Shown here in pieces: positions 13,284-27,446 of a stretch of 64,000 bases of DNA (position 1 is the first letter of the stretch; every line of letters begins with the position of its first letter). The position numbers and the translations under genes are program-made. Source of the stretch: Rhodanobacteraceae bacterium (GTDB lineage: Bacteria > Pseudomonadota > Gammaproteobacteria > Xanthomonadales > Rhodanobacteraceae). Location: contig SCQS01000067.1 in assembly GCA_004299705.1 (NCBI GenBank), forward strand, positions 1 through 64,000, given 5' to 3'. Below the pieces are notes generated by a model. That model was not told the DNA's origin. It was given only the letters and a program-made list of their open reading frames with translations, and did not search any database.

Positions 13284-14614
13284 AGACGACGCGTTACCGC
13301 AGCACCCGTGGCCGCAGTCCGATGGTCGGCATTGGCGCAGCCATCGCGGCCGGACTCGCGCCGGACGGCGGCCTGTACGTGCCGGAACGGTTGCCGCGCC
13401 TCGACGTCGCCGTGTTCGATCCGAACGGCACGCTGACCGACACCGCGACGACGCTGCTGGCGCCGTTCTTCGCGGGCGATCCACTGGCCGACGCATTGCC
13501 TGCGATCTGCGCCGAGGCGCTGACCTTCGATACGCCGTTGCGTCCGCTCGCGGGCGATCCGCATGGACATGTGCTGGAACTGTTCCACGGCCCGACCGCC
13601 GCGTTCAAGGACGCGGGCGCGCGTTTCCTGGCTGCCTGCCTACGGCGTTTGCCACGCAGCGATGCACGCCCGCTCACCATCCTGGTCGCGACCTCGGGCG
13701 ACACCGGCGCGGCGGTGGGCGCGGCCTTCCATGGTCAACCGGGCGTGCGCGTGGTGATCCTGTATCCGGATGGCCGGGTTTCGCCGCGCCAGGCGCACCA
13801 GCTCGGCTGTTTCGGCGGCAATGTGCGGGCGCTGCGCGTGTCCGGCCGCTTCGACGATTGCCAACGCATGGTCAAGGCGGCCTTGAACGATGTCGAACTG
13901 CAGCGCGAGGTGCCGCTGAGTTCGGCCAACAGCATCAGCCTCGGCCGCCTGCTGCCGCAAATGAGCTACTACGCGCATGCCGCGCTGGCGTGGTGGCGCG
14001 CGCAGGCTGTGCCACTCAACTTCATCGTGCCCACCGGCAACCTCGGCAACGCGTTGGCTTGCCTGTGGGTGCGTGAAACAGGATTGCCCGTCGGCGAGAT
14101 ACGGCTGGCCTGCAACGCCAATGCCACCCTGTCCGATTTTTTTTCAGGCGACGACTATCGCCCGCGTGCCGCGGTGGCCACGCTCGCCAACGCGATGGAC
14201 GTGGGCGCGCCCAGTAATTTCGAACGCCTGCGCTGGACTTTCGGCGACGACATCTCCGTGCGTCGAACGGTGCGTGCGGAATGCGTGGACGATGCGGCCA
14301 TCCGCGCAACCATCCGCCGGCATGCGCACGAACATGGCGAAGTCCTGTGCCCGCACACGGCCTGCGCGGCGCATGTCCTCGACGGATTGCGTGCGGAAGG
14401 CGATCGCGCCGAATGTGCGGTGGTCGCCACCGCGCACCCGGCCAAGTTCGAGGGCGTGGTCGAACCGTTGGCAGGTCGCCCGGTGGCGGTGCCCTCCGCG
14501 CTGGCGGTGATGCTGCAGCGGCCAAGCCACGCCGAGCCGCTGGCGGCGGAAGATGCGGCCTTGAAACAGTGGCTGCGCCAGCATGCCCACGCTGGCGAGG
14601 CTTTCGTGGCTTGA
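13280..14614 (+). CDS. thrC: Threonine synthase
   Basis: A 444-residue PLP enzyme that turns phosphohomoserine into threonine. The PLP lysine is in [15 protein letters not shown] (Lys110). Other family features are the start with [19 protein letters not shown], and [14 protein letters not shown]. Length and motifs match the bacterial group also found in E. coli. Its ATG overlaps the thrB stop. No convincing terminator follows: there is only a 6-base-pair hairpin around the stop, so some read-through into the leu region is possible. Confidence 0.96.
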
Positions 14615-14682
14615 AAGCGGGTGGACGTCTGGATGGCCAAACCGCCAATCCGCACTAAGAAAAAATCATCATAAGAAAACAG

Positions 14683-14711
14683 TTGACAGGCTGGCTCGTT
14701 CTGCTTTACGT
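14683..14711 (+). promoter_or_regulatory. Promoter of the leu/ilv operon
   Basis: TTGACA (14683-14688), a 17-base spacer and TTACGT (14706-14711; TTTACG with 16 bases is also possible). An A-rich tract with AAGAAAAAATCATCATAAG just upstream looks like an UP element. The start of transcription is expected at about 14718-14719, on the leader ATG itself. Confidence 0.8.
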
Positions 14712-14718
14712 TCGTTCC

Positions 14719-14856
14719 ATGCCGCAGCGCAACATCCAAACCAGCATCGCCGCTCCGAACCGTCCCGCGACGGTCGATGGCCTGCTGCTTGGCGGCACGC
14801 TCCTGCTTGCCCTCATTACCCTCGTACTCCTTATTACCAACGGAGGTGCGGGCTGA
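14719..14856 (+). CDS. leuL: Leucine/isoleucine/valine leader peptide (attenuation), probably leaderless
   Basis: A 45-residue frame. Residues 22-37 contain ten Leu codons mixed with Ile, Val and Thr (LLLGGTLLLALITLVLLIT), as expected for a leader that senses branched-chain aminoacyl-tRNAs. The ATG lies 7 bases after the -10 box and no ribosome binding site is present, so translation should start on a leaderless mRNA. The last codons (14845-14852, GGTGCGGG) are the antiterminator partner of the terminator downstream, so a ribosome at the stop would mask them, while a ribosome stalled at the Leu codons would not. Peptides of this kind are usually left out of annotations. Confidence 0.85.
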   Translation: MPQRNIQTSIAAPNRPATVDGLLLGGTLLLALITLVLLITNGGAG

Positions 14857-14903
14857 GGGCATGTGTCCAGGTAGCTAGAAAACGAACCTGAAAACACCCG
14901 AAG

Positions 14904-14935
14904 AACCCCGCACCAGCAATGGCGCGGGGTTTTTT
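14904..14935 (+). terminator. Attenuator terminator of the leu/ilv operon
   Basis: Stem AACCCCGC/GCGGGGTT (14904-14911 with 14924-14931) followed by a run of six T (14930-14935). Its left arm overlaps CCCGCACC (14907-14914), which is perfectly complementary to GGTGCGGG at the end of the leader ORF (14845-14852). The two pairings exclude each other, giving a classical terminator/antiterminator switch. A further hairpin CAGGT/ACCTG lies between them. leuA starts 38 bases downstream. Confidence 0.88.
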
Positions 14936-14972
14936 GTTGCCCAAGGACCGGCTTCCCACCACGGAGCCAACC

Positions 14973-16210
<1,238 letters not shown>

Positions 16211-16214
<4 letters not shown>

Positions 16215-17629
16215 ACGCGCCCCGCACCCTGTTCGAGAAAATCTGGGACGCCCACGTCGTTGCGCCCGAAACCACCGATACGCCTGCGGTCCTCTACGTC
16301 GACCTGCAGCTCGTGCACGAAGTCACCTCGCCGCAGGCGTTCGACGTATTGCGCGCGCAGGGGCTGAAACTGCGCCGCCCGGATCGCACGCTGGCGACGC
16401 TGGATCATTCGATCCCGACGCTGCCGGCAAGCGGTAACGGCGAGCGGCCGTATGCCACGCCCGCAGCCAAGGCGCAGGTCGCGCGACTGGAAACCAACTG
16501 CCGCGAGTTCGGCATCGAACTGCATGGCTGGAACAGCAGCGAGCGCGGCATCGTGCATGTGATCGGCCCGGAATTGGGGGCCACCCAACCGGGCATGACC
16601 ATCGTCTGTGGCGACAGCCATACCTCCACGCATGGCGCGTTCGGCGCGCTGGCGTTCGGCATCGGCACCACCGAAGTCGGCCACGTGCTGGCCACGCAAT
16701 GCCTGTTGCAGCGCAAGCCGAAAACGCTGGCGATCCACGTGGACGGCGAGCTGCCGCCGGGCGTGGGCGCGAAAGACCTGATCCTGCACATCATCGGCCG
16801 GATCGGCGTGAACGGCGGCACCGGCCACGTGATCGAGTACCGCGGCGCGGCCATCGAGAAGCTGTCGATGGAGGCGCGCATGACGGTGTGCAACATGTCG
16901 ATCGAAGCCGGCGCGCGTGCCGGCCTGATCGCACCGGATGACACCACCTTTGCATGGCTGCAGGGTCGCGCACGCGTGCCGCATGGCGCCGCGTGGGACG
17001 CGGCCGTCGCGAAGTGGAGCGCGCTGAAGACCGACGCTGGCGCGCGCTACGACCGCGAGGTGCACATCGACGCGCGCGAGGTGAAACCCACGGTCACCTA
17101 CGGCACCCATCCGGGCATGGCGCTCGCGCTGGATGCGCCGGTTCCCGCCGCGCGCGACGCCATCGAGCAGCGCGCGCTGGATTACATGCAGGCCGCCGCC
17201 GGCAAACCGATGCAGGGCACGCCGGTGGACGTGGTGTTCGTCGGCAGCTGCACCAACGGGCGCCTGCCGGACTTGCGCGAAGCCGCGCACGTGCTGCGCG
17301 GCCGGCGCGTCGCGAAGGGGGTGCGCATGCTGGTGGTGCCGGGCTCCGAAGCGGTGCGCCGCGCCGCCGAAGCCGAAGGCCTGCACGAAGTGTTCCGCGC
17401 CGCCGGCGCCGAATGGCGCGAGCCGGGTTGCTCGATGTGCATCGCGATGAACGGCGACATGGCGCAACCGGGGCAACTGGTCGTCTCGACGTCCAACCGC
17501 AACTTCGAAGGCCGTCAGGGCAAGGGCGCGCGCACCGTGTTGGCCAGCCCCGCCACCGCCGCCGCGTCAGCCGTGGCCGGCGTGATCGCCGATCCGCGCG
17601 CATACCCGCAACAGGAGCGAGCCGCATGA
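16211..17629 (+). CDS. leuC: 3-Isopropylmalate dehydratase large subunit
   Basis: A 472-residue aconitase-family subunit. With LeuD it isomerises 2- to 3-isopropylmalate using a 4Fe-4S cluster. Cluster and active-site motifs are visible: [33 protein letters not shown] (cluster Cys) and [11 protein letters not shown] (two further Cys). Length equals the family norm (about 466-475). Its ATG overlaps the leuA stop and its stop overlaps leuD, so all three are coupled. Confidence 0.97.
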
Positions 17630-18210
17630 AACCCGTCACCCGCATCCACTCGCGCACCGCCGTGCTGGCGGACGAGAACATCGATACCGACCGCATCATC
17701 CCGGCACGCTTCCTCACCACCACCACGCGCGAAGGCCTGGGCCGTGTCTGCTTCAACGACTGGCGTTACCTGCCCGACGGCAGCGACAACCCCGCCTTCC
17801 CGTTGAACCGGCCGGAAGCGAAGGGCTGCGCGATCCTCGTCGCGGGACGCAACTTCGGCTGCGGTTCCTCGCGCGAACACGCGCCATGGGCGCTGCTGGA
17901 CTACGGCATCCGCGCGGTGCTGTCGAGTGAAATCGCGGACATCTTCCGCAACAACGCGCTGAAGAACGGCCTGCTCGCGATCGTGGTCGCCGAAGCCGAG
18001 CACCACTGGCTGCTCGACAACCCCGGCGTCGATCTGTCCATCGACGTGCGCGAACAAACGATCACCCTGCCCGGCGGCAAGGCTTTTCGTTTCGAACTCG
18101 AGCCGTTCGCGCGCCACTGCCTGCTGGAAGGCGTCGACCAGCTTGGATTCCTGCTGCAGCACGCCGACGCCATCACTGCCTACGAACAACACCTGGAGCA
18201 AGCCGCATGA
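17626..18210 (+). CDS. leuD: 3-Isopropylmalate dehydratase small subunit
   Basis: A 194-residue swivelling-domain partner of LeuC. Typical motifs are [14 protein letters not shown] near the N-terminus and [17 protein letters not shown] in the middle, which close over the substrate. The ATG at 17626 overlaps the leuC stop (ATGA) and is preceded by AGGAG. Its own stop overlaps leuB. Length is slightly under the 200-215 typical of many proteobacteria but complete. Confidence 0.96.
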
Positions 18211-19298
18211 AAGCAATGATCGTCACCCTTCCCGGCGACGGCGTCGGCCCCGAGGTCACCGCCGTGGCGGTGGCCGTGTTGAATGCGGTGGCCGAACAGT
18301 ACGGCCATGAATTCACGTTCAAGGAACACCTGATGGGCGGCTGCGCCATCGACGCCACCGGCGAGCCGCTGCCGGCCGCGACGCTGACCGCGTGCAAGTC
18401 CGCCGATGCGGTGTTGCTGGGCGCGGTCGGCGGACCGAAGTGGTCCGACCCGAATGCCGAAGTGCGCCCGGAACAGGGGCTGCTGGGTTTGCGCGCCGCG
18501 CTCGGCGTGTACGCCAACCTGCGCCCGCTCGTGGTGCATCCCGCGCTGGCGGCGTTGTCGCCGTTGAAGGCCGATCGTCTTGAAGCCGTGGACGTGCTGT
18601 TCGTGCGCGAATTGACCGGCGGTGCCTACTTCGGCGCCAAGACCCGCAGCGCCGACACCGCGACCGACGAATGCAAATACACCACCGCCGAAGTCGAGCG
18701 CGTGGCCCGGCGTGCGTTCGAGCTCGCGCGCGGCCGCCGCAAGCACCTCACCTCGGTGGACAAGGCCAACGTGCTGGAAACCTCGCGGTTGTGGCGCAGC
18801 ACGGTGACTCGCGTCGCCGCCGATTACCCCGACGTGACACTCGAACACCAGCTGGTCGATTCGATGGCGATGCTGTTGCTGGCGCGGCCCGGCCACTACG
18901 ACGTGGTGGTTACCGAGAACCTGTTCGGCGACATCCTCACCGACGAGGCCGCGGCCATCGCGGGCTCGCTGGGCCTGCTGCCGTCGGCGTCGCTGGGCGA
19001 AGGCAAGCTCGGGATCTACGAGCCGATCCACGGCTCGGCCCCCGACATCGCGGGGAAAGGCCTCGCCGATCCGGTCGGCACGATCCTGTCCGCAGCCCTG
19101 CTGTTGCGGCACTCGCTGGACCTGGAAATGGAAGCGGCGGCGATCGAGGCGGCGGTCGGCGAGGTGCTGGCGCAGGGCCCGCACACGCGCGATCTCGGCG
19201 GCAATGCAAGTACGCGCGACGTATGCGGCGCGGTGCTGGCCAACCTGCAGCGCGCAGCCGCGCCTGTCGTATCGCGCGCCCAACGCGCGTTCGGTTGA
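18207..19298 (+). CDS. leuB: 3-Isopropylmalate dehydrogenase
   Basis: A 363-residue NAD-dependent enzyme that oxidises and decarboxylates 3-isopropylmalate. Family features: [10 protein letters not shown] (about 6-15), [21 protein letters not shown], the substrate/metal stretch [20 protein letters not shown], and [14 protein letters not shown] for the nucleotide site. Length matches LeuB (about 355-365). Its ATG overlaps the leuD stop. It completes the leucine branch of the operon before the ilv genes begin 11 bases later. Confidence 0.97.
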
Positions 19299-19309
19299 GG
19301 GAGATCGCG

Positions 19310-21007
19310 ATGCGCAGTGACGTCATCAAGAGCGGCCCCGATCGTGCCCCCGCGCGCGCGATGCTGCGCGCCACCGGCCTCGATGGCGACGCCATCCGCA
19401 AGCCGTTGGTCGCGGTGGTGCACACCTGGTCGGATGTCAGCCCCTGCAACCTCAACCATCGCGAGCTTGCGGAACAAGTCGCGGCCGGCATCCGCGCGGC
19501 CGGCGGCACGCCGATCGAGTTCAACACCATCGCAGTCACCGATGGCATCGCGATGGGCACCGCGGGCATGCGCTATTCGCTGGTCAGCCGCGAGATCATC
19601 ACTGATTCGATCGAGGCGGCGGTGGAAGGCCATTGCCTCGACGCGATGGTGGTGCTGTGCGGCTGCGACAAGACCATTCCCGCCGCGGCGATGGCGATGG
19701 TGCGGCTGGATATTCCCAGCGTCGCGCTGTACGGCGGCACCATCGCGCACGGCACCCACGACGGCCATCCGATCACCATCCAGCAGGTGTTCGAGGCGGT
19801 CGGCGCGCACGGCGCCGGCAAGATCGACGATGCCGAACTGACGCGTGTGGAATGCGACGCCTGCTGCGGCGCCGGTGCCTGCGGTGGCCAGTTCACCGCC
19901 AACACCATGGCGATGGTGCTGACCACGCTCGGCCTTTCGCCCATGGGCCTCAACGACATTCCCGCCACGCATCCGGCCAAGGGCGCGGCTGCGTACCGCT
20001 GCGGCGAACTGGTGATGGAATGCCTGCGCGCCGATCGCCGCCCCAGCGCGATGCTGACGCGCAGCGCGTTCCGCAACGCCGCGCGCATGGTCGCGGCGAC
20101 GGCCGGTTCCACCAACGCGGTGCTGCACCTGCTGGCAATCGCGCGCGAGGCCGGCGTCGAGTGGTCGCTGGAAGATTTCGAGCCCGCATCCAGACACACG
20201 CCGGTGATCGCCGACCTGCTGCCGGGTGGCCGCTACACCGCGGTCGAGTTGTTTGGCGCCGGCGGCGTTGCGCGCGTCGCCCAGGAATTGATTGCGGCCG
20301 GCATGCTGGACGACACCCCGACCGTCACCGGCCATTCGCTGTTCACGGAAACGGCGGCAGCGCCGCGCGCGGAAAAGCAGGACGTGGTGCACACGGTCAA
20401 TGCACCGTTCAAGCCGCGCGGCGGTTATTCGATCCTGTACGGCAACCTCGCTCCGGAAGGTTGCGTGCTGAAGATCCCGCGCGAAGGCGGCCACTTCGAA
20501 GGCACCGCGCGGGTGTTCGAAAGCGAGGAAGACGCGTTCGAGGCCGTACAGCACGACCGCATCCATGCGGGCGACGTCGTGGTGATCCGCAACGAAGGCC
20601 CGGCCGGCGGCCCCGGCATGCGCGAGATGTTGGGCGTCACGGCGGCCTTGATCGGACGCGGGCTGGGCCACGACGTCGCATTGATCACCGACGGGCGCTT
20701 TTCCGGCGCGACCCACGGTTTCATGGTTGGTCACGTTGCCCCGGAAGCCGCGCGCGGCGGCCCGATCGCGTTGCTGCGCGACGGCGATCCCGTCGTGATC
20801 GATGCCGCCCACCGTGAGCTGCGCACCAGCGCCGACCTTGCAAGCCGCCGCGCGAACTGGAAACCGCCCGAACCAAAAGTCACCCGCGGCGCATTGGCCA
20901 AGTTCGCGCGCCTCGTCGGCTCCGCTTCCCACGGCGCCACCACCCAACTCGACCAGACCCATCCCACCCGCCCCCGCATCGCAACCACCGAAGGAGTCAC
21001 CACATGA
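19310..21007 (+). CDS. ilvD: Dihydroxy-acid dehydratase
   Basis: A 565-residue Fe-S enzyme that dehydrates the dihydroxy acids of the valine and isoleucine pathways. The three cluster cysteines are expected in SPCNLNH, GCDKT and [11 protein letters not shown], all present, as is [12 protein letters not shown] near the C-terminus. The length fits the shorter IlvD subgroup (about 560-575). The ATG at 19310 follows GAGGGAGA. The gene follows leuB by 11 bases and overlaps ilvC as ATGA. The C-terminal 35 residues are Thr/His/Pro-rich and probably disordered. A related but distinct dehydratase, edd, lies at 34711-36636. Confidence 0.95.
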
Positions 21008-22014
21008 GCACCCAGAACCATTCCCTCGCCAAGTCCCGCATCGCCGTGCTTGGTTACGGCAGCCAGGGACGCGCCCACGCCCTCAACCTGCGCGACTCCG
21101 GCCTCGATGTCGTGGTCGGCGTGCGCCAGGGCGGCCCGTCGTGGCAGCGCGCCCGCGACGAAGGCTTCAAGGTCGCCGAACCGGCCGAGGCGGTGACCGG
21201 CGCCGATCTCGTCGCGGTGCTGACGCCCGACATGGTGCAGCCGAAGTTGTACGAGGACGCGATCAAGCCCAACCTCAAGCCCGGCGCGGCGTTGCTGTTC
21301 GCGCACGGTTTCAACATCCACTTCGGCCAGATCAAGCCGCGCGCCGACGTCGACGTGGTGATGGTGGCGCCGAAGGGGCCCGGTGCCCTGGTGCGCAGCG
21401 AATACGAACGCGGCCGCGGCGTGCCGTGCCTGTTCGCGGTCGCGCAGGATGCCAGCGGCCATGCCGAGGTCATGGCGCGTGCCTACGCCGATGGCATCGG
21501 CGGCGGTCGCGCGATGCTCATCAAGACCGACTTCAAGGAAGAAACCGAAACGGATTTGTTCGGCGAACAGGCCGTGCTGTGCGGCGGTGCCAGCGCGCTG
21601 GTGCAGGCCGGATTCGAGACCCTGGTCGAAGCCGGTTACCAACCGGAAATCGCCTACTACGAAGTGTTCCACGAATTGAAATTGATCGTGGACCTGTTCT
21701 ACGAAGGCGGCATCGCGAAGATGCTGCAGTACATCTCCGAAACCGCGCAGTACGGCGATTTCGTCAGCGGCCCGCGCGTGATCGACGCCGGCGTGAAGGC
21801 GCGCATGCAGGAAGTGCTGAAGGAAATCCAGGACGGCACCTTCGCCAGGAACTGGACGGCCGAATACGCGGCTGGCCTGCCCAACTACAAGCGCTACAAG
21901 CAGGCCGACCTCGACCACCCGATCGAGAAGGTCGGCGCCGCACTGCGCGCGCGCATGTCGTGGCTGCAACCCGACGCGCCCAAGGCGGCCGAACCGCTCA
22001 GGAAGGTTGGGTGA
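21004..22014 (+). CDS. ilvC: Ketol-acid reductoisomerase, class I
   Basis: A 336-residue NADPH-dependent enzyme for the second common step of valine and isoleucine synthesis. The Rossmann motif is [13 protein letters not shown] (17-29). KARI-domain features include [30 protein letters not shown] (metal-binding Asp/Glu) and [17 protein letters not shown]. Class I length (about 330-340) without the duplicated C-terminal domain of E. coli IlvC. It overlaps the ilvD stop. Confidence 0.97.
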
Positions 22015-22054
22015 GGTCTTGCCTTCAAACCCGCAAACGCAAACGAGGTCCGCC

Positions 22055-22399
22055 ATGAAACGCTTCCACATCGCCCTGGCCGTCGCCGACCTGGACGCTT
22101 CCATCAACGATTACAGCGCGCGCCTGGGCCAACCTCCGCAGGCCGTGGTCACGGGCACTTACGCCATGTGGCGAACCGGCCAGCTGAATTTCTCCATCCG
22201 CCAGCAACCCGAGCGCAGCGGCCAGTTGTGCAATTTCGGATTCGAGGACGATGACGCCATGGGCTTCAGCTCGGAAGTCGATATCAACGGCATCCCCTGG
22301 GAGCGTTTCTCCTCGGTCGAACAGGATCTGCAGGTGATCCTGACCTATGGCGTGCCGGTGCATCCGATGCCCACCGAGGATGACCTGATCCGCAACTGA
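22055..22399 (+). CDS. VOC-family (glyoxalase-fold) protein inside the ilv operon
   Basis: A 114-residue single-domain protein. The N-terminus MKRFHIALAVADLDASINDYSARLG is the typical first beta-alpha unit of vicinal oxygen chelate proteins. A later stretch, WRTGQLNFSIRQQPERSGQL, fits the expected pattern of strands. The ATG at 22055 has GAGG 6 bases before it, 40 bases after the ilvC stop. Its role next to acetohydroxyacid enzymes is unknown; it may protect against or process a reactive dicarbonyl. It could also be an unrelated passenger. Confidence 0.75.
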   Translation: MKRFHIALAVADLDASINDYSARLGQPPQAVVTGTYAMWRTGQLNFSIRQQPERSGQLCNFGFEDDDAMGFSSEVDINGIPWERFSSVEQDLQVILTYGVPVHPMPTEDDLIRN

Positions 22400-22440
22400 C
22401 GGGCGCACCGCCCGTCATCCCGGCGAAGGCCGGGATCCAG
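22400..22440. repeat. Two-hairpin intergenic repeat, family C
   Basis: Two adjacent hairpins, CGGGCG/CGCCCG (22400-22405 with 22409-22414) and ATCCCGGC/GCCGGGAT (22417-22424 with 22429-22436), begin one base after the VOC stop. The CGTCATCCCGGCGAAGGCCG core belongs to a dispersed repeat type common in proteobacteria. Neither hairpin has a T run, so it need not end transcription of ilvB, which starts 22 bases later. Confidence 0.75.
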
Positions 22441-22461
22441 CGTCTTTCCCATGAGCTCACC

Positions 22462-24330
22462 GTGACCGCGATGCCCCAAACCCTTGCCGCAGCACCTGCC
22501 CCCGACTGCCACCCACGCGCGGGCGTGGCCATGACCGGCGCCGACGTGGTGGTGCGGGTACTCGCGGACGAAGGCGTGGAGGTGCTGTTCGGATACTCCG
22601 GCGGCGCGATCCTGCCGGTGTACGACGCGGTGTTTCGTCACAACGCCGAACACGGCAACGGCGATGGACGCGACGCCATGCCGCTGGTGGTGCCGGCCAA
22701 CGAGCAGGGCGCGGGTTTCATGGCCTCGGGTTACGCACGCGCGTCGGGCAAGGTCGGCGTGGTCGTCGTCACCTCGGGACCGGGCGCCACCAACACGGTG
22801 ACGCCGGTGCGCGACGCGATGGCCGATTCGATCCCGATGGTGGTGATCTGCGGCCAGGTGCCGACCGCGTCGCTGGGCAGCGATGCCTTCCAGGAAGCGC
22901 CGGTCAGCAACATCATGGGCGCCTGTGCCAAGCACGTGTTCCTGGTGACCGATCCCGGACAACTGGAAGCAACCGTGCGCACCGCTTTCGAGATCGCGCG
23001 CAGCGGGCGCCCCGGCCCGGTGGTGGTGGACATCCCGAAGGACGTGCAGAACGCGAAGCTCAGCTACGACGGCAACTGCCGCCTGCCGATCCCGGGCTAT
23101 CGCGCGCGGCTGCGCGCGGTCGAGCAGGCGCGCCTGGGCGATGATGCTTGCGCCGCCTTCTTCGCTGCGCTGGCCCAAGCCCGGCGCCCGCTGATTTACG
23201 CGGGCGGCGGCGTGATCGCGGGCGCCGCTGCACCTGCGCTGCGCGCGTTCGTCGACGCGTTCGGAGTGCCGGTGACGACCACGCTGATGGGCCTGGGCGG
23301 TTTCGACACCACGCATCCGCTGGCGCTGCACATGCTGGGCATGCACGGCACCGCCTACGCCAACTATGCGGTGGAGGATTGCGATTTCCTGCTGGCACTG
23401 GGTGCCCGCTTCGACGATCGCGTGGCCGGCGCGCCCGGCAAGTTCGCGCCGTGCGCCAGGTTCATCGCGCAGATCGACATCGATCCCGCCGAGGTCGGCA
23501 AGGTCAAGCGGGTCCACTGGCACCACGTCGGCCCGCTGGCCGCCGCGCTCGAGCGCCTGACGGCGCATGGCCGCGCGCACGGCACCCGGCTTTCGCTCGC
23601 CGACTGGCAAGCGCATGTCGCGCGGCTGAAGCGTGACCACGCGATGAACTATGACCGCGCGAGCCCGTTGGTCCAGCCGCAGGCGGTGATCGAGGCGATC
23701 AATCGAATCACGCAAGGCCGCGCCATCGTCGGTACCGGCGTCGGCCAGCACCAGATGTGGGCGGCGCAGTACTTCGATTTCCGCGCACCACGGCAGTGGC
23801 TCACTTCCGGCTCGATGGGCACGATGGGCTTCGGCTTGCCGGCGGCGATCGGCGCGCAGTTCGCGCGCCCCGATGCGCTGGTGATCGACATCGACGGCGA
23901 CGGCAGCATCCGCATGAACCTCGGCGAGCTCGAAACCGTCACCACCTGCGGCCTGCCGCTGAAAGTCGTGCTGCTCAACAACGGCGGCGACGGCATGGTG
24001 CGGCAGTGGCAGAAGCTGTATTTCGGGCAGCGTTTCGCGGGCTCCGACAAAAGCCTGCGTCGCAAGGATTTCGTCAAGGCCGCCGAGGCCGACGGCTTCG
24101 AGTGGGTGCGGCGACTCGCCGACAAGGCCGCGTTGGAATCGACCATCAGCGAGTTCCTCGCCTTCGATGGCCCGGCGTTCCTGGAAGTGATGATCGACCC
24201 CGAGGCCGGCGTGTATCCGATGGTGGGGCCGGGCGCCAGCTACGCGCAGATGGTCACCGGCGATTTCATCGCGGCACGTGAGGGGGATTCGACTGTGATG
24301 GAAGCCGCGCCGGTCGATTCGATGTTTTGA
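22462..24330 (+). CDS. ilvB: Acetolactate synthase large subunit
   Basis: A 622-residue ThDP enzyme making acetolactate and acetohydroxybutyrate. The activating glutamate is in PANEQGAGF (about Glu81), followed by TSGPGATNTVTPV. The C-terminal ThDP/Mg motif runs from IDIDGDGSIRMN to LLNNGGDG, and GMVRQWQKLYF matches the AHAS family. Length is above the usual 550-590, from an Ala/Pro-rich N-terminus and an extended tail. A GTG at 22462 is used; ATG at 22471 is possible and neither has a strong binding site. ilvM follows after 17 bases. Whether it is ilvB, ilvG or ilvI is a naming choice. Confidence 0.94.
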   Translation: MTAMPQTLAAAPAPDCHPRAGVAMTGADVVVRVLADEGVEVLFGYSGGAILPVYDAVFRHNAEHGNGDGRDAMPLVVPANEQGAGFMASGYARASGKVGVVVVTSGPGATNTVTPVRDAMADSIPMVVICGQVPTASLGSDAFQEAPVSNIMGACAKHVFLVTDPGQLEATVRTAFEIARSGRPGPVVVDIPKDVQNAKLSYDGNCRLPIPGYRARLRAVEQARLGDDACAAFFAALAQARRPLIYAGGGVIAGAAAPALRAFVDAFGVPVTTTLMGLGGFDTTHPLALHMLGMHGTAYANYAVEDCDFLLALGARFDDRVAGAPGKFAPCARFIAQIDIDPAEVGKVKRVHWHHVGPLAAALERLTAHGRAHGTRLSLADWQAHVARLKRDHAMNYDRASPLVQPQAVIEAINRITQGRAIVGTGVGQHQMWAAQYFDFRAPRQWLTSGSMGTMGFGLPAAIGAQFARPDALVIDIDGDGSIRMNLGELETVTTCGLPLKVVLLNNGGDGMVRQWQKLYFGQRFAGSDKSLRRKDFVKAAEADGFEWVRRLADKAALESTISEFLAFDGPAFLEVMIDPEAGVYPMVGPGASYAQMVTGDFIAAREGDSTVMEAAPVDSMF

Positions 24331-24347
24331 TGACGTGGAGCCTTGCC

Positions 24348-24674
24348 ATGAAACACACCCTGTCCATCCTGTTGCAGAACGAAGCCGGTGCGCTGGCGCG
24401 CGTGGCGGGGCTGTTCGCCGCACGCCACGTCAACATCGACACCCTCACCGTGGCGCCCACCCACGAGCCCGCGATCTCGCACCTCACCGTGGTGATCCAT
24501 GGCGGCGAGGCCACGCTGGAGCAGATCGTGCGGCAAACCCGCAAGCTGGTCGACGTGATCAGCGTGCGCAGTCTCGGCCAGCTCTGTGACGTCGGTTATC
24601 TCGCGGGCGAAGCCGTGCGCAGCAACGCGCATGGCCATGCGGACAACCATGGCAAGTGGCAACAAAGTGTTTGA
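24348..24674 (+). CDS. ilvM: Acetolactate synthase small subunit, single-ACT form
   Basis: A 108-residue protein with one ACT domain, starting MKHTLSILLQNEAGALARVAG and continuing to HVNIDTLTVAPT and ISHLTVVI. In the family this subunit stabilises the large subunit and can bring in valine feedback. The second, C-terminal domain of IlvN/IlvH (about 160 residues) is missing, so it is closer to IlvM. The ATG at 24348 follows GGAG. It is the last gene of the operon; a hairpin with a T run follows at 24732. Confidence 0.88.
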   Translation: MKHTLSILLQNEAGALARVAGLFAARHVNIDTLTVAPTHEPAISHLTVVIHGGEATLEQIVRQTRKLVDVISVRSLGQLCDVGYLAGEAVRSNAHGHADNHGKWQQSV

Positions 24675-24731
24675 CACGCGCTGTGGTGGAGTGTGGTCTG
24701 CAGACGCGCCGGAGGCACACGCGTCCGGTGC

Positions 24732-24754
24732 ACGCCGGCTTCAACCGGTGTTTT
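24732..24754 (+). terminator. Terminator of the leu/ilv operon
   Basis: A 7-base-pair stem with one G-U pair (24732-24738 with 24745-24751) and loop CTTCAA runs into TTTT at 24751-24754. It overlaps the last codons of the convergent ppc gene, so the two transcripts share this spot. Confidence 0.6.
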
Positions 24755-27446
24755 GCAGGCCCTGCGCGACGCCGTTGACGCAGGCCACCAGGGCGCGCAG
24801 CAAGCCGTCGTCCTTGCCGTCGCCGGCACGCCAGCGGCGCAACAGATCCACCTGCAACATGCTGATCGGATCGATGTAGGGGTTGCGCAAGCGGATTGAC
24901 AGGGCCAGTCGCGGTTCGTGCTGCAATAACGCGTCGGTGCCCTTGAGCCTGAGCAGCCAGCGCCGGGTGCGCGCGAACTCGGCGCGGATCAGCTCGAAGA
25001 ATTCCGGGTGCAGCGGGCCGGCCAACTGCGAGAAGGCTTCGGCGATGTCGAGGTCGCACTTGGCCAGCAGCATTTCCACGTCGTCCAGCACGTTGGCAAG
25101 GAACGGCCAGTCGCGCGCCATCTCGGCCAGTGTCGACTCACCGAAAGCCTCGACGCCGTGCTCGAGCGCGCTGCCGAGGCCGTACCAACCGGTGATGATG
25201 GAGCGACATTGCGTCCACGAGAACACCCACGGTATCGCGCGCAGGTCTTCGACGCCGCGCATGCTGCGCCGGCTGGCGGGACGCGAACTCATGGTCATGC
25301 GCTCGATCACGTCGATGGGCGTCGCCGCGCGGAAGTATTCGACGAAACCGGGGCGCTCGACCAGTGCGCGGTAGGCGTCGCGGCTGCGCGCGGCCAGCAC
25401 GCCCATGCGTTCGCGCCATGCCTGTTCGCGCGGCTCCGGCGCGCGTGGCCGCAGGCTGGCGCGCAGGGCCGCGCCCACGGTCTGCTCGAGATTGCGCAGG
25501 GCCAGCGCGCGGATGCCGTACTTGCGGTGGATCACCTCGCCCTGCTCGGTCATGCGCAGGCGCCCGGCCACGGCCCCGCGCGGCGAAGCCATCAAGGCCG
25601 GCGTCACCTTGCCGCCGCCGCGACTGGCGGAACCGCCGCGGCCGTGGAAGAAAGTGAGGCCGATGCCGGCCTCGCTGGCCACCTCCAGCAATTCGACTTG
25701 CGCGCACTGCAAGGCCCAGCGTGCTGCGAGGATGCCGCCGTCCTTGGCGCTGTCGGAATAGCCCAGCATCACCAGTTGGCGATCACCCCGACGCGCGAGG
25801 TGCGCGCGGTAGACCGGGTCGTCCAGCAGCGCGCGCAGGCTGGACGCGGCGTGCTTCAGGTCATCGACGGTTTCGAACAGCGGGCCGATGTCGAGCGGCA
25901 CCGCGTCGTCCTCGACCAGTCCGCCGTGACGCGCCAGCGCGAGCACCGCCAGCACGTCGGCGGCCGAGCGCGCCATCGAGATGATGTACGGGCCGGTGGC
26001 ATCGGGGCCGTAGCGGCGGCGCGCGTCGGCCAGCGTCGCGAACACGGCATGCAGGCGTTCGACCGCGGCGTCGCTGTGCGCGGCGAACGTCGCTTCGCCC
26101 GCGGCCAGCGCGCGCAGGCGCGTAGCGCGATCGGCGGGCGCACGCGCCGCCCATTCGGGATCGTCCAGCAACACCGCCAGCACGTCGTCGTGCACGCGCG
26201 CGTCCTGGCGCACGTCCAGTCGAGCCAGATGGAAGCCGAAGGTGCGCACGCGCCAGTGCAAGCGGCGCACGCCGAACAAGCCCGCGTGCTCGCCCTTGTT
26301 CGCGGCAAGGCTGTCGGCGATCAACGCGACGTCGGCTTCGAACTCGGCGGCATTGGCGTAGCCTTGCGCCTGATCGTCCTCGGTGGCGACCAGGCGCGAC
26401 CGCATCAGCGTCAGCAGGCAACGGTACGGCATGTTGGCGTGGCGCGGCCGGATGCGTGCGGCCGCTTCCGGCAAGCGCCGGCGATAATCCTGCAGGCGTG
26501 CGCGCAGTGCGGCCGAGGTCGTGACGCGATCGTCGGTCTGGCTGAGCAGCCGCCCGAGGCGCGTGCACTCGGCTCGGTAGCGTTCCAGCACCATCGCCCG
26601 TTGTGCGCGCAAGGTCTGGTCAATGGTGTCGGCGCCGACGTTGGGATTGCCGTCCATGTCGCCGCCAACCCACGAGCCGAAGCGCAGCAGGCGTGGCAAC
26701 GCAGGCGTGGTTTGGTAAACCCGCGCGAGTTCGTGTTCCAGCGTTTCGTAGAACACCGGCAATACGCGGTACAGCGGTTCGGCGAGATAAAAACTCACGT
26801 GCTCGAATTCGTCCTGCACGCTGGGCCGGATCGCTGATGCCTCCGCGGTTTGCCAGCCGGCGGTGAGCGCCATGCGCAGTCGCTGGTGATCGACGGCGCG
26901 CTCGCGCGGCGTGCGCGCGGCATCGAAACCCGCCACCAGCGCCTGCACGATGGCCTGTTCCTTCTCCAGCAGCGAACGTCGTACCGCTTCGGTCGGATGC
27001 GCGGTGAACACGGGTTCGACGTCCAGCGTCGCCAGGCAGGCCAGCAATTCCTGCGTGTCCACCCCGCGCGCCTTGAGCGAGGTCAGGACATCGGCCAGCG
27101 ATTCCGGCTGCGGCGCGGCGCTGGCCAACTGATAATCGCGGCGACGGCGGATGCGGTGCACGCGCTCGGCGGTGTTGACGGCGTGGAACCAGGTGGCGAA
27201 AGCGCGCACCAGCGCTTCGGCCGCGCCTGCGTCCAGTTCCTGCAGGGATGACGCGAGCGTGTCCACCGCGCGGCCCTCGCGGCGGCGCCGGATCGCCGCC
27301 GTGCGCAGGTCCTCGACGCGCTGGTAGAAAGCTTCGCCGCCCTGTTCGGCCAGCATCCGGCCGACCAACATGCCGAGATGATGGACGTCTTCGCGCAGCG
27401 GGCCGTCGTGTTGCAGGAAGTCGGGGGCGCGGTCGGGTGTGTCCAT
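24741..27446 (-). CDS. ppc: Phosphoenolpyruvate carboxylase
   Basis: A 901-residue enzyme that carboxylates PEP to oxaloacetate and so feeds aspartate, the precursor of threonine and related amino acids. The catalytic histidine is in [13 protein letters not shown] (His150). Other signatures are [20 protein letters not shown] and [14 protein letters not shown], the glycine loop. The chain ends in QNTG, the usual C-terminus. The ATG at 27446 is chosen because GGAG lies 6 bases upstream; a TTG at 27467 would overlap that site. It is convergent with the ilv operon and separated from gltD by a palindromic element. Confidence 0.97.

Follow-up and report, generated by a model that had tools for sequence, protein, structure and literature searches.

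We find that the operon leuA-leuC-leuD-leuB-ilvD-ilvC-(small gene)-ilvG-ilvM of a Rhodanobacteraceae bacterium is very probably controlled by a ribosome-mediated transcription attenuator whose leader ORF is leaderless. The locus lies on contig SCQS01000067.1, in a stretch of 64,000 nucleotides that was analysed as a whole and is called the window here. Classical attenuation is well supported by the sequence and by the folding model and is the best reading of the region: the parts of the switch, their conservation and covariation and, within the folding model, their dependence on ribosome position can be read from the DNA. The least ordinary features are the probably leaderless layout and the joint leu–ilv operon. 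The leader region contains the following elements.

14683..14688, + strand: -35 element TTGACA, starting 36 nt upstream of the leader ATG
14707..14712, + strand: -10 element TACGTT (3/6 consensus bases), ending 6 nt before the ATG; the predicted transcription start is the A of the ATG or a base beside it
14719..14856, + strand: leader ORF of 45 codons, probably leaderless, encoding the 45-aa peptide MPQRNIQTSIAAPNRPATVDGLLLGGTLLLALITLVLLITNGGAG
14800..14835, + strand: control codons (7 Leu, 2 Ile, 1 Val); a stall here is predicted to permit the antiterminator (helix probability 0.97–1.0, codons 27–38)
14835..14848, + strand: putative small hairpin TACC-loop-GGTG (segment 1:2), which would compete with segment 2; from the RNAalifold consensus of 59 leaders, mostly invariant and weakly supported
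14845..14852, + strand: segment 2, GGTGCGGG, the 5' arm of the antiterminator (exact complement, conservation, covariation)
14853..14905, + strand: conserved hairpin from the stop codon to the terminator, the apical part of the antiterminator (spacer folding z, paired changes)
14907..14914, + strand: segment 3, CCCGCACC, common to antiterminator and terminator (exact complement, covariation)
14904..14935, + strand: intrinsic terminator (segments 3:4 and six T), -19.7 kcal/mol, with covariation in the stem

Like ribosome-mediated attenuators of the trp/his/leu/ilv/thr type, this region has a short leader ORF rich in codons of the downstream pathway, and an intrinsic terminator stands between the ORF and the first gene. 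The initial annotation had placed ten Leu codons together with Ile and Val at 14782-14835, and we find exactly there ten Leu, two Ile and one Val codons, 13/18 in total. Among the 102,361 stop-free 18-codon stretches in six frames of the window, the leader cluster is the only one with at least 10 Leu.

For comparison we used two sets of relatives. A LeuA search gave 80 loci, in which the leader was recognised by the pattern GGNGCNGG-stop; 58/80 leuA loci have a leader with the same tail, and the other 22 have none at that place. A covariance model was built from 59 close leaders, 46 of which have a leader ORF of 138 nt. From the listed matches of this model 40 distant loci were picked by hand for genus spread, a choice that favours better scores; all stand before leuA (15), ilvC (13) or ilvD (12).

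In the 59 close leaders, the control stretch shows a strong codon preference. Leu is encoded by CTC or CTT in 372/382 cases, compared with 414/1,849 (22%) in leuA of the same loci, Val by GTA in 105/125 (leuA: 106/1,549, 7%) and Ile by ATT in 87/95 (leuA: 77/942, 8%), all counts being inflated by the shared ancestry of the 59 leaders. Part of this bias may serve to keep the leader RNA unpaired or unstructured.

The end of the ORF had been proposed to pair perfectly with the left arm of a terminator bearing a six-T run. In fact, segment 2 is the exact reverse complement of segment 3, and segment 3 is the left arm of a terminator whose stem is directly followed by TTTTTT at 14930-14935. Structure prediction agrees: the predicted fold of the 222-nt leader segment is 4.05 SD more stable than those of 200 dinucleotide shuffles, with 0 reaching the native value. 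The antiterminator had, however, been equated with the two 8-mers, and here we find it to be larger than 8 bp, because the conserved hairpin between the stop codon and the terminator joins them. Segments 2 to 3 of the window fold as a single long hairpin of -28.2 kcal/mol, compared with -19.7 for the terminator alone. The spacer hairpin is predicted despite sequence change, with a mean z of -1.84 over 51 distinct spacers and 44/51 below -1 (the others being those of L005, L029, L036, L040, L045, L055 and L069), and 7/14 of its pairs are changed on both sides among the 59 leaders. By eye, a GGGC that follows the stop looks complementary to a GCCC behind the terminator. A promoter and terminator scan of 14400-15100 returned 0 promoters and 0 terminators; the -10 element in this region has 3/6 consensus bases, and the stem holds an internal mismatch.

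Conservation at the end of the ORF is pronounced. The codons GGT GCG have a pS of 0.0, with zero synonymous differences among the 46 equal-length leaders, compared with 0.24–0.43 in the segments of codons 2-39. Among the 59 close leaders, 99.8% of the cells of the 8-bp helix hold a pair and none shows a double change, so covariation in this set is uninformative by itself. In a set of 53 divergent leaders, composed of 13 of the 59 close leaders and the 40 distant ones, 96.2% of cells are paired, while slides by 1-3 columns give at most 62.9%. The central pair, 14847/14912, is U-A in 37 of these leaders, C-G in 6, A-U in 2 and U-G in 2, with 5 unpaired and 1 gap; it shows 8 double-change cells, and neither the percentage paired nor the covariation score was reached by shuffles (0/500). 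The C-G and A-U forms appear in at least three groups, drawn by eye: the ilvD leaders L117, L119, L120, L124 and L131; L136 or L138; and L143 and L144. Covariation of 14845-14852 with 14907-14914, the test set beforehand for the pairing, is thus seen in divergent relatives. It is carried by one of the eight pairs, the others being nearly invariant, and at that pair it preserves an alternative helix that uses the 5' arm of the terminator. A chance 8-mer complement is ruled out by this conservation and covariation.

The terminator stem covaries more broadly, with double changes at 6/9 pairs (25 cells; 0/500 shuffles reached). On the 59-leader alignment, control slides of helix 2 gave covariation scores of 0.067 and 0.068, against 0.062 for the real helix. 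Consequently, on that alignment only the percentage paired separates structure, and the spacer hairpin is argued for mainly by the folding z of the 51 spacers.

We then come to the position of the ribosome, modelled as a stall in which the RNA under the ribosome is removed and the transcript ends just after segment 3. In the window, the 2:3 helix has a predicted probability of 0.97–1.0 while the A site is at any of codons 27-38; the value falls to 0.62 at codon 39, and from codon 40 up to the stop it is about 0. This pattern holds for ribosome edges of 9, 12 and 15 nt and for three transcript ends. At codons 22-26 the probability is 0.01–0.09 (0.02 and 0.01 at Leu codons 22 and 23) and at codon 21 it is 0.96, so that within the first Leu triplet only the first codon (21) is predicted to be effective at the 12-nt edge, and at the 15-nt edge not even this one. 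Over the 59 leaders, the mean helix probability is 0.91–0.96 from codon -17 to -7 relative to the stop, 0.61 at -6 and at most 0.01 from -5; L054 and L059 are exceptions, with values of about 0. The folding model therefore has ribosome position decide between the two helices. The initial annotation had a ribosome at the stop codon mask segment 2 and one stalled on Leu codons free it, which agrees with the model for the stop codon and for codons 27-38 but not for most of the first Leu triplet.

At equilibrium, the terminator has a predicted probability of 1.0 for every ribosome position in the window, and the switch must therefore be kinetic, which is a standard requirement for attenuators. Without a ribosome, the probability of the 2:3 helix is 0.37 in the window and ranges from 0 to 0.98 in relatives; the untranslated state is thus not conserved.

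We propose the following course of events, in which the start site, the kinetics and the amino-acid response are what we infer. Transcription would start at the A of the leader ATG or at a neighbouring base, and a ribosome would load on the 5' end and read the ORF behind RNA polymerase. With charged Leu, Val and Ile tRNA in ample supply, this ribosome would reach the stop codon and cover segment 2, upon which segment 3 would pair with segment 4 and the terminator would form. A stall at the codons of 14800-14835 would leave segment 2 free, and the already-folded hairpin after the stop would let segment 3 pair with segment 2 ahead of the synthesis of segment 4, allowing the polymerase to read on.

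Promoter spacing and the absence of a Shine-Dalgarno-like motif suggest that the leader ORF is probably leaderless and translated from the very 5' end. In 59/59 close and 37/40 distant leaders (all but L134, L141 and L142), a TTGAC stands 35-38 nt ahead of the leader ATG, compared with 109/15,314 background ATGs (0.7%) of the same loci. A -10-like hexamer is present in 59/59 close leaders, with its end 6-8 nt from the ATG; this spacing would put the start at the ATG. An SD-like motif precedes 0/99 leader starts but 53/58 leuA starts, the latter figure being generous since any in-frame ATG near the N-terminus was accepted. The leader ATG was chosen by ORF length for the 59 and with the help of the promoter for the 40, and so only the 59 provide an unbiased test. 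Most leaders of the family begin with M-[STP]-Q-R-N-S-H (14719-14740) and the ilvC leaders with MLHRHT or MLQRHT; the keeping of the first leader codons is possibly a requirement of leaderless initiation. A paper on mycobacteria reportedly deals with polycysteine ORFs that are leaderless. It is unlikely, though conceivable, that the message of the same attenuator carries a short 5' UTR, with initiation that needs no Shine-Dalgarno motif, instead of being truly leaderless. The -10 element is poor and would tolerate a 5' stretch of a few bases, and with its end 6-8 nt from the ATG the start could lie 1-2 nt upstream, as in Corynebacterium glutamicum ilvBNC, where the start site is reported to lie one nucleotide from the start codon of the leader ilvL (PMC11857589). 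TTGAC at 35-38 nt in all 59 close leaders nevertheless fits a start at the A itself.

Three further readings can be considered. The leader peptide could itself be a functional small membrane or trans-acting protein, as reported for Sinorhizobium meliloti peTrpL, which works in trans and is encoded by a leaderless ORF (PMC7298713). The length of 45 aa, the hydrophobic middle and the recurring N-terminus of most leaders speak in favour of such a role, yet a run of branched-chain codons is hydrophobic by necessity, and pN/pS is 0.84 for codons 2-8, 1.07 for codons 9-20 and 1.12 for codons 21-27. By these values the peptide is under little or no selection except in its control codons and tail, which gives a functional peptide little support; we consider it quite improbable.

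Less credible still is the hairpin as only the terminator of the upstream thrB-thrC, with the Leu-rich ORF incidental. Both genes lie upstream of the leader on the same strand, thrC ending at 14614, just upstream, and the terminator would also stop thr transcripts. However, the leader is kept before ilvC and ilvD besides leuA, no second Leu-rich run of this kind occurs in the window, segments 2 and 3 covary, and the synonymous sites of GGT GCG are frozen. We reject the thrC-terminator reading because the cassette precedes different genes. Control mainly through threonine, as in Escherichia coli thrL with the same tail, is just as hard to credit: GGTGCGGGCTGA and CCCGCACC are identical to thrL, the tail has ACC codons, and the best-scoring non-self leaders in Rfam, His and Thr, stay below threshold, but 14800-14835 holds 7 Leu, 2 Ile and 1 Val codons against 1 Thr codon, the next Thr codon, 39, stands where stalling begins to lose its effect (0.62), and the downstream genes are leu and ilv. 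The attenuator responding to branched-chain amino acids thus remains our reading, and the genes that it would govern are these.

14973..16214, + strand: leuA, 2-isopropylmalate synthase of 413 aa without a LeuA_dimer domain (profile match, Pfam)
16211..17629, + strand: leuC (TIGR00170)
17626..18210, + strand: leuD (TIGR00171)
18207..19298, + strand: leuB (TIGR00169)
19310..21007, + strand: ilvD (TIGR00110)
21004..22014, + strand: ilvC (TIGR00465)
22055..22399, + strand: small protein, VOC-like by a weak hit only (VOC/ArsI-like, 21.4 bits, cut-off 116; no Pfam hit)
22462..24330, + strand: ilvG, acetolactate synthase large subunit, start codon uncertain (TIGR00118)
24330..24674, + strand: ilvM-like acetolactate synthase small subunit with an ACT domain (PF22629)

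One leader had been suggested to govern nine leu and ilv genes. Nine co-directional genes, closely spaced or overlapping, do follow the leader, and we infer from this arrangement a single transcript. The next gene after the ilvM-like one encodes PEP carboxylase on the opposite strand. A pattern scan of 14700-24900 found no promoter-like site and one terminator-like site on the + strand, inside ilvD at 20227, which is no more than shuffles give. A homologue of the small gene lies between ilvC and ilvG in 17/80 leuA loci.

The LeuA_dimer domain (PF08502) has zero matches anywhere in the genome that holds the window, whereas 14/14 control genomes have a match, and no second close LeuA was found in this genome. 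The domain is present in 141/197 genomes of the family; in the genus of the window, only G781 has it among the 16 genomes in the matches listed. Short LeuA proteins also occur in L003 (413) and in L051, L052, L053 and L056 (392-409), while the other LeuA of the set have at least 509 codons. A possible consequence of the missing domain is loss of leucine feedback inhibition, in which case the attenuator may be the main leucine-specific control in this genome.

In relatives, the leader precedes leuA where leuA is the first gene. Of the 22 leuA loci without a leader at that place, 14 place IlvG ahead of leuA, which is therefore not the opening gene of the locus. L060 and L061 have a different short ORF with a similar hairpin (by eye in L060). 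The covariance model finds one copy in the window's own genome, matches 247/398 genomes of the order at E <= 0.01 and, among the matches listed, occurs in at least 118/125 genomes of the window's own family. Outside the order it matches 4/369 genomes of a class sample; judged by eye, 2 of these matches precede leuA- or ilvC-like genes and 2 precede MFS-like proteins. The latter two, L154 and L156, are weak matches that lie behind short branched-chain-rich ORFs, and the MFS-like transporters after them could possibly be attenuated amino-acid transporters. In the ilvC leaders L115, L116, L118, L122, L126-L129, L152 and L153, which belong to another family (f2), the ORF runs 5 codons past segment 2; a terminating ribosome would therefore stand further downstream than in the window.

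On balance we lean slightly towards an order-wide Lysobacterales family of branched-chain attenuators with leaderless leader ORFs, moving as a cassette before the opening gene of the operon (leuA, ilvC or ilvD). Our literature search found no paper on a branched-chain attenuator in Xanthomonadales/Lysobacterales; an earlier prediction of Xanthomonas leaders is possible, and Vitreschak et al. 2004 (FEMS Microbiol Lett) is said to be its likeliest place. With its many natural variants, the Rhodanobacteraceae leader is a computationally tested case of a leucine/valine attenuator in front of a combined leu–ilv operon. If it is leaderless, the sensor would be read by ribosomes that need no Shine-Dalgarno pairing, and conditions favouring leaderless messages could thus shift the switch without a change in amino acids. 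The leaderless layout, if confirmed, would also make Lysobacterales a system in which to study the role of leaderless initiation in setting the basal level of attenuation and its timing.

Comparison with known attenuators separates the core of the switch from its setting. An Rfam search gave 0 hits at the gathering score and weak ones only, with E-values of 0.02 and above: RF00512 Leu_leader reached 17.2 bits (gathering score 50), RF00506 Thr_leader 22.9 (55) and RF00514 His_leader 26.2 (49), and a known Rfam leader was rejected accordingly. E. coli leuL (leuABCD) likewise has Leu codons before leuA; unlike the window, it has four Leu codons in a row (CTA, against CTC/CTT here), no complement of more than 6 nt between ORF and downstream region in the same script, and no ilv genes behind it. 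The layout of the message start resembles that of S. meliloti trpL, a leaderless leader ORF whose message starts at the ATG (PMC10117765, PMC7298713), and that of C. glutamicum ilvL, where the message starts one nucleotide from the ATG (PMC11857589), although these are an alphaproteobacterial trp and an actinobacterial ilvBNC system. E. coli ilvL (ilvGMEDA) shares the branched-chain codons, and GTGCGGGG of its ORF is complementary to its terminator arm CCCCGCAC; however, it has 32 aa and governs ilv genes only, and its segment 2 lies 24 nt before the stop, as in Lysobacterales ilvC/ilvD leaders but not in the window.

The E. coli thrL attenuator has a 5' UTR in its message. It differs from the window in its Thr/Ile codons, its 21 aa and its thrA operon, yet its ORF ends with GGTGCGGGCTGA, the twelve bases found here at 14845-14856, and the 5' arm of its terminator holds CCCGCACC, again with identical bases. 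We note that thrB and thrC stand directly upstream of the leader whose end matches thrL. With GGTGCGGGCTGA identical in thrL, the core is an ordinary gammaproteobacterial attenuator and, judged by its bases, belongs to a wider gammaproteobacterial design.
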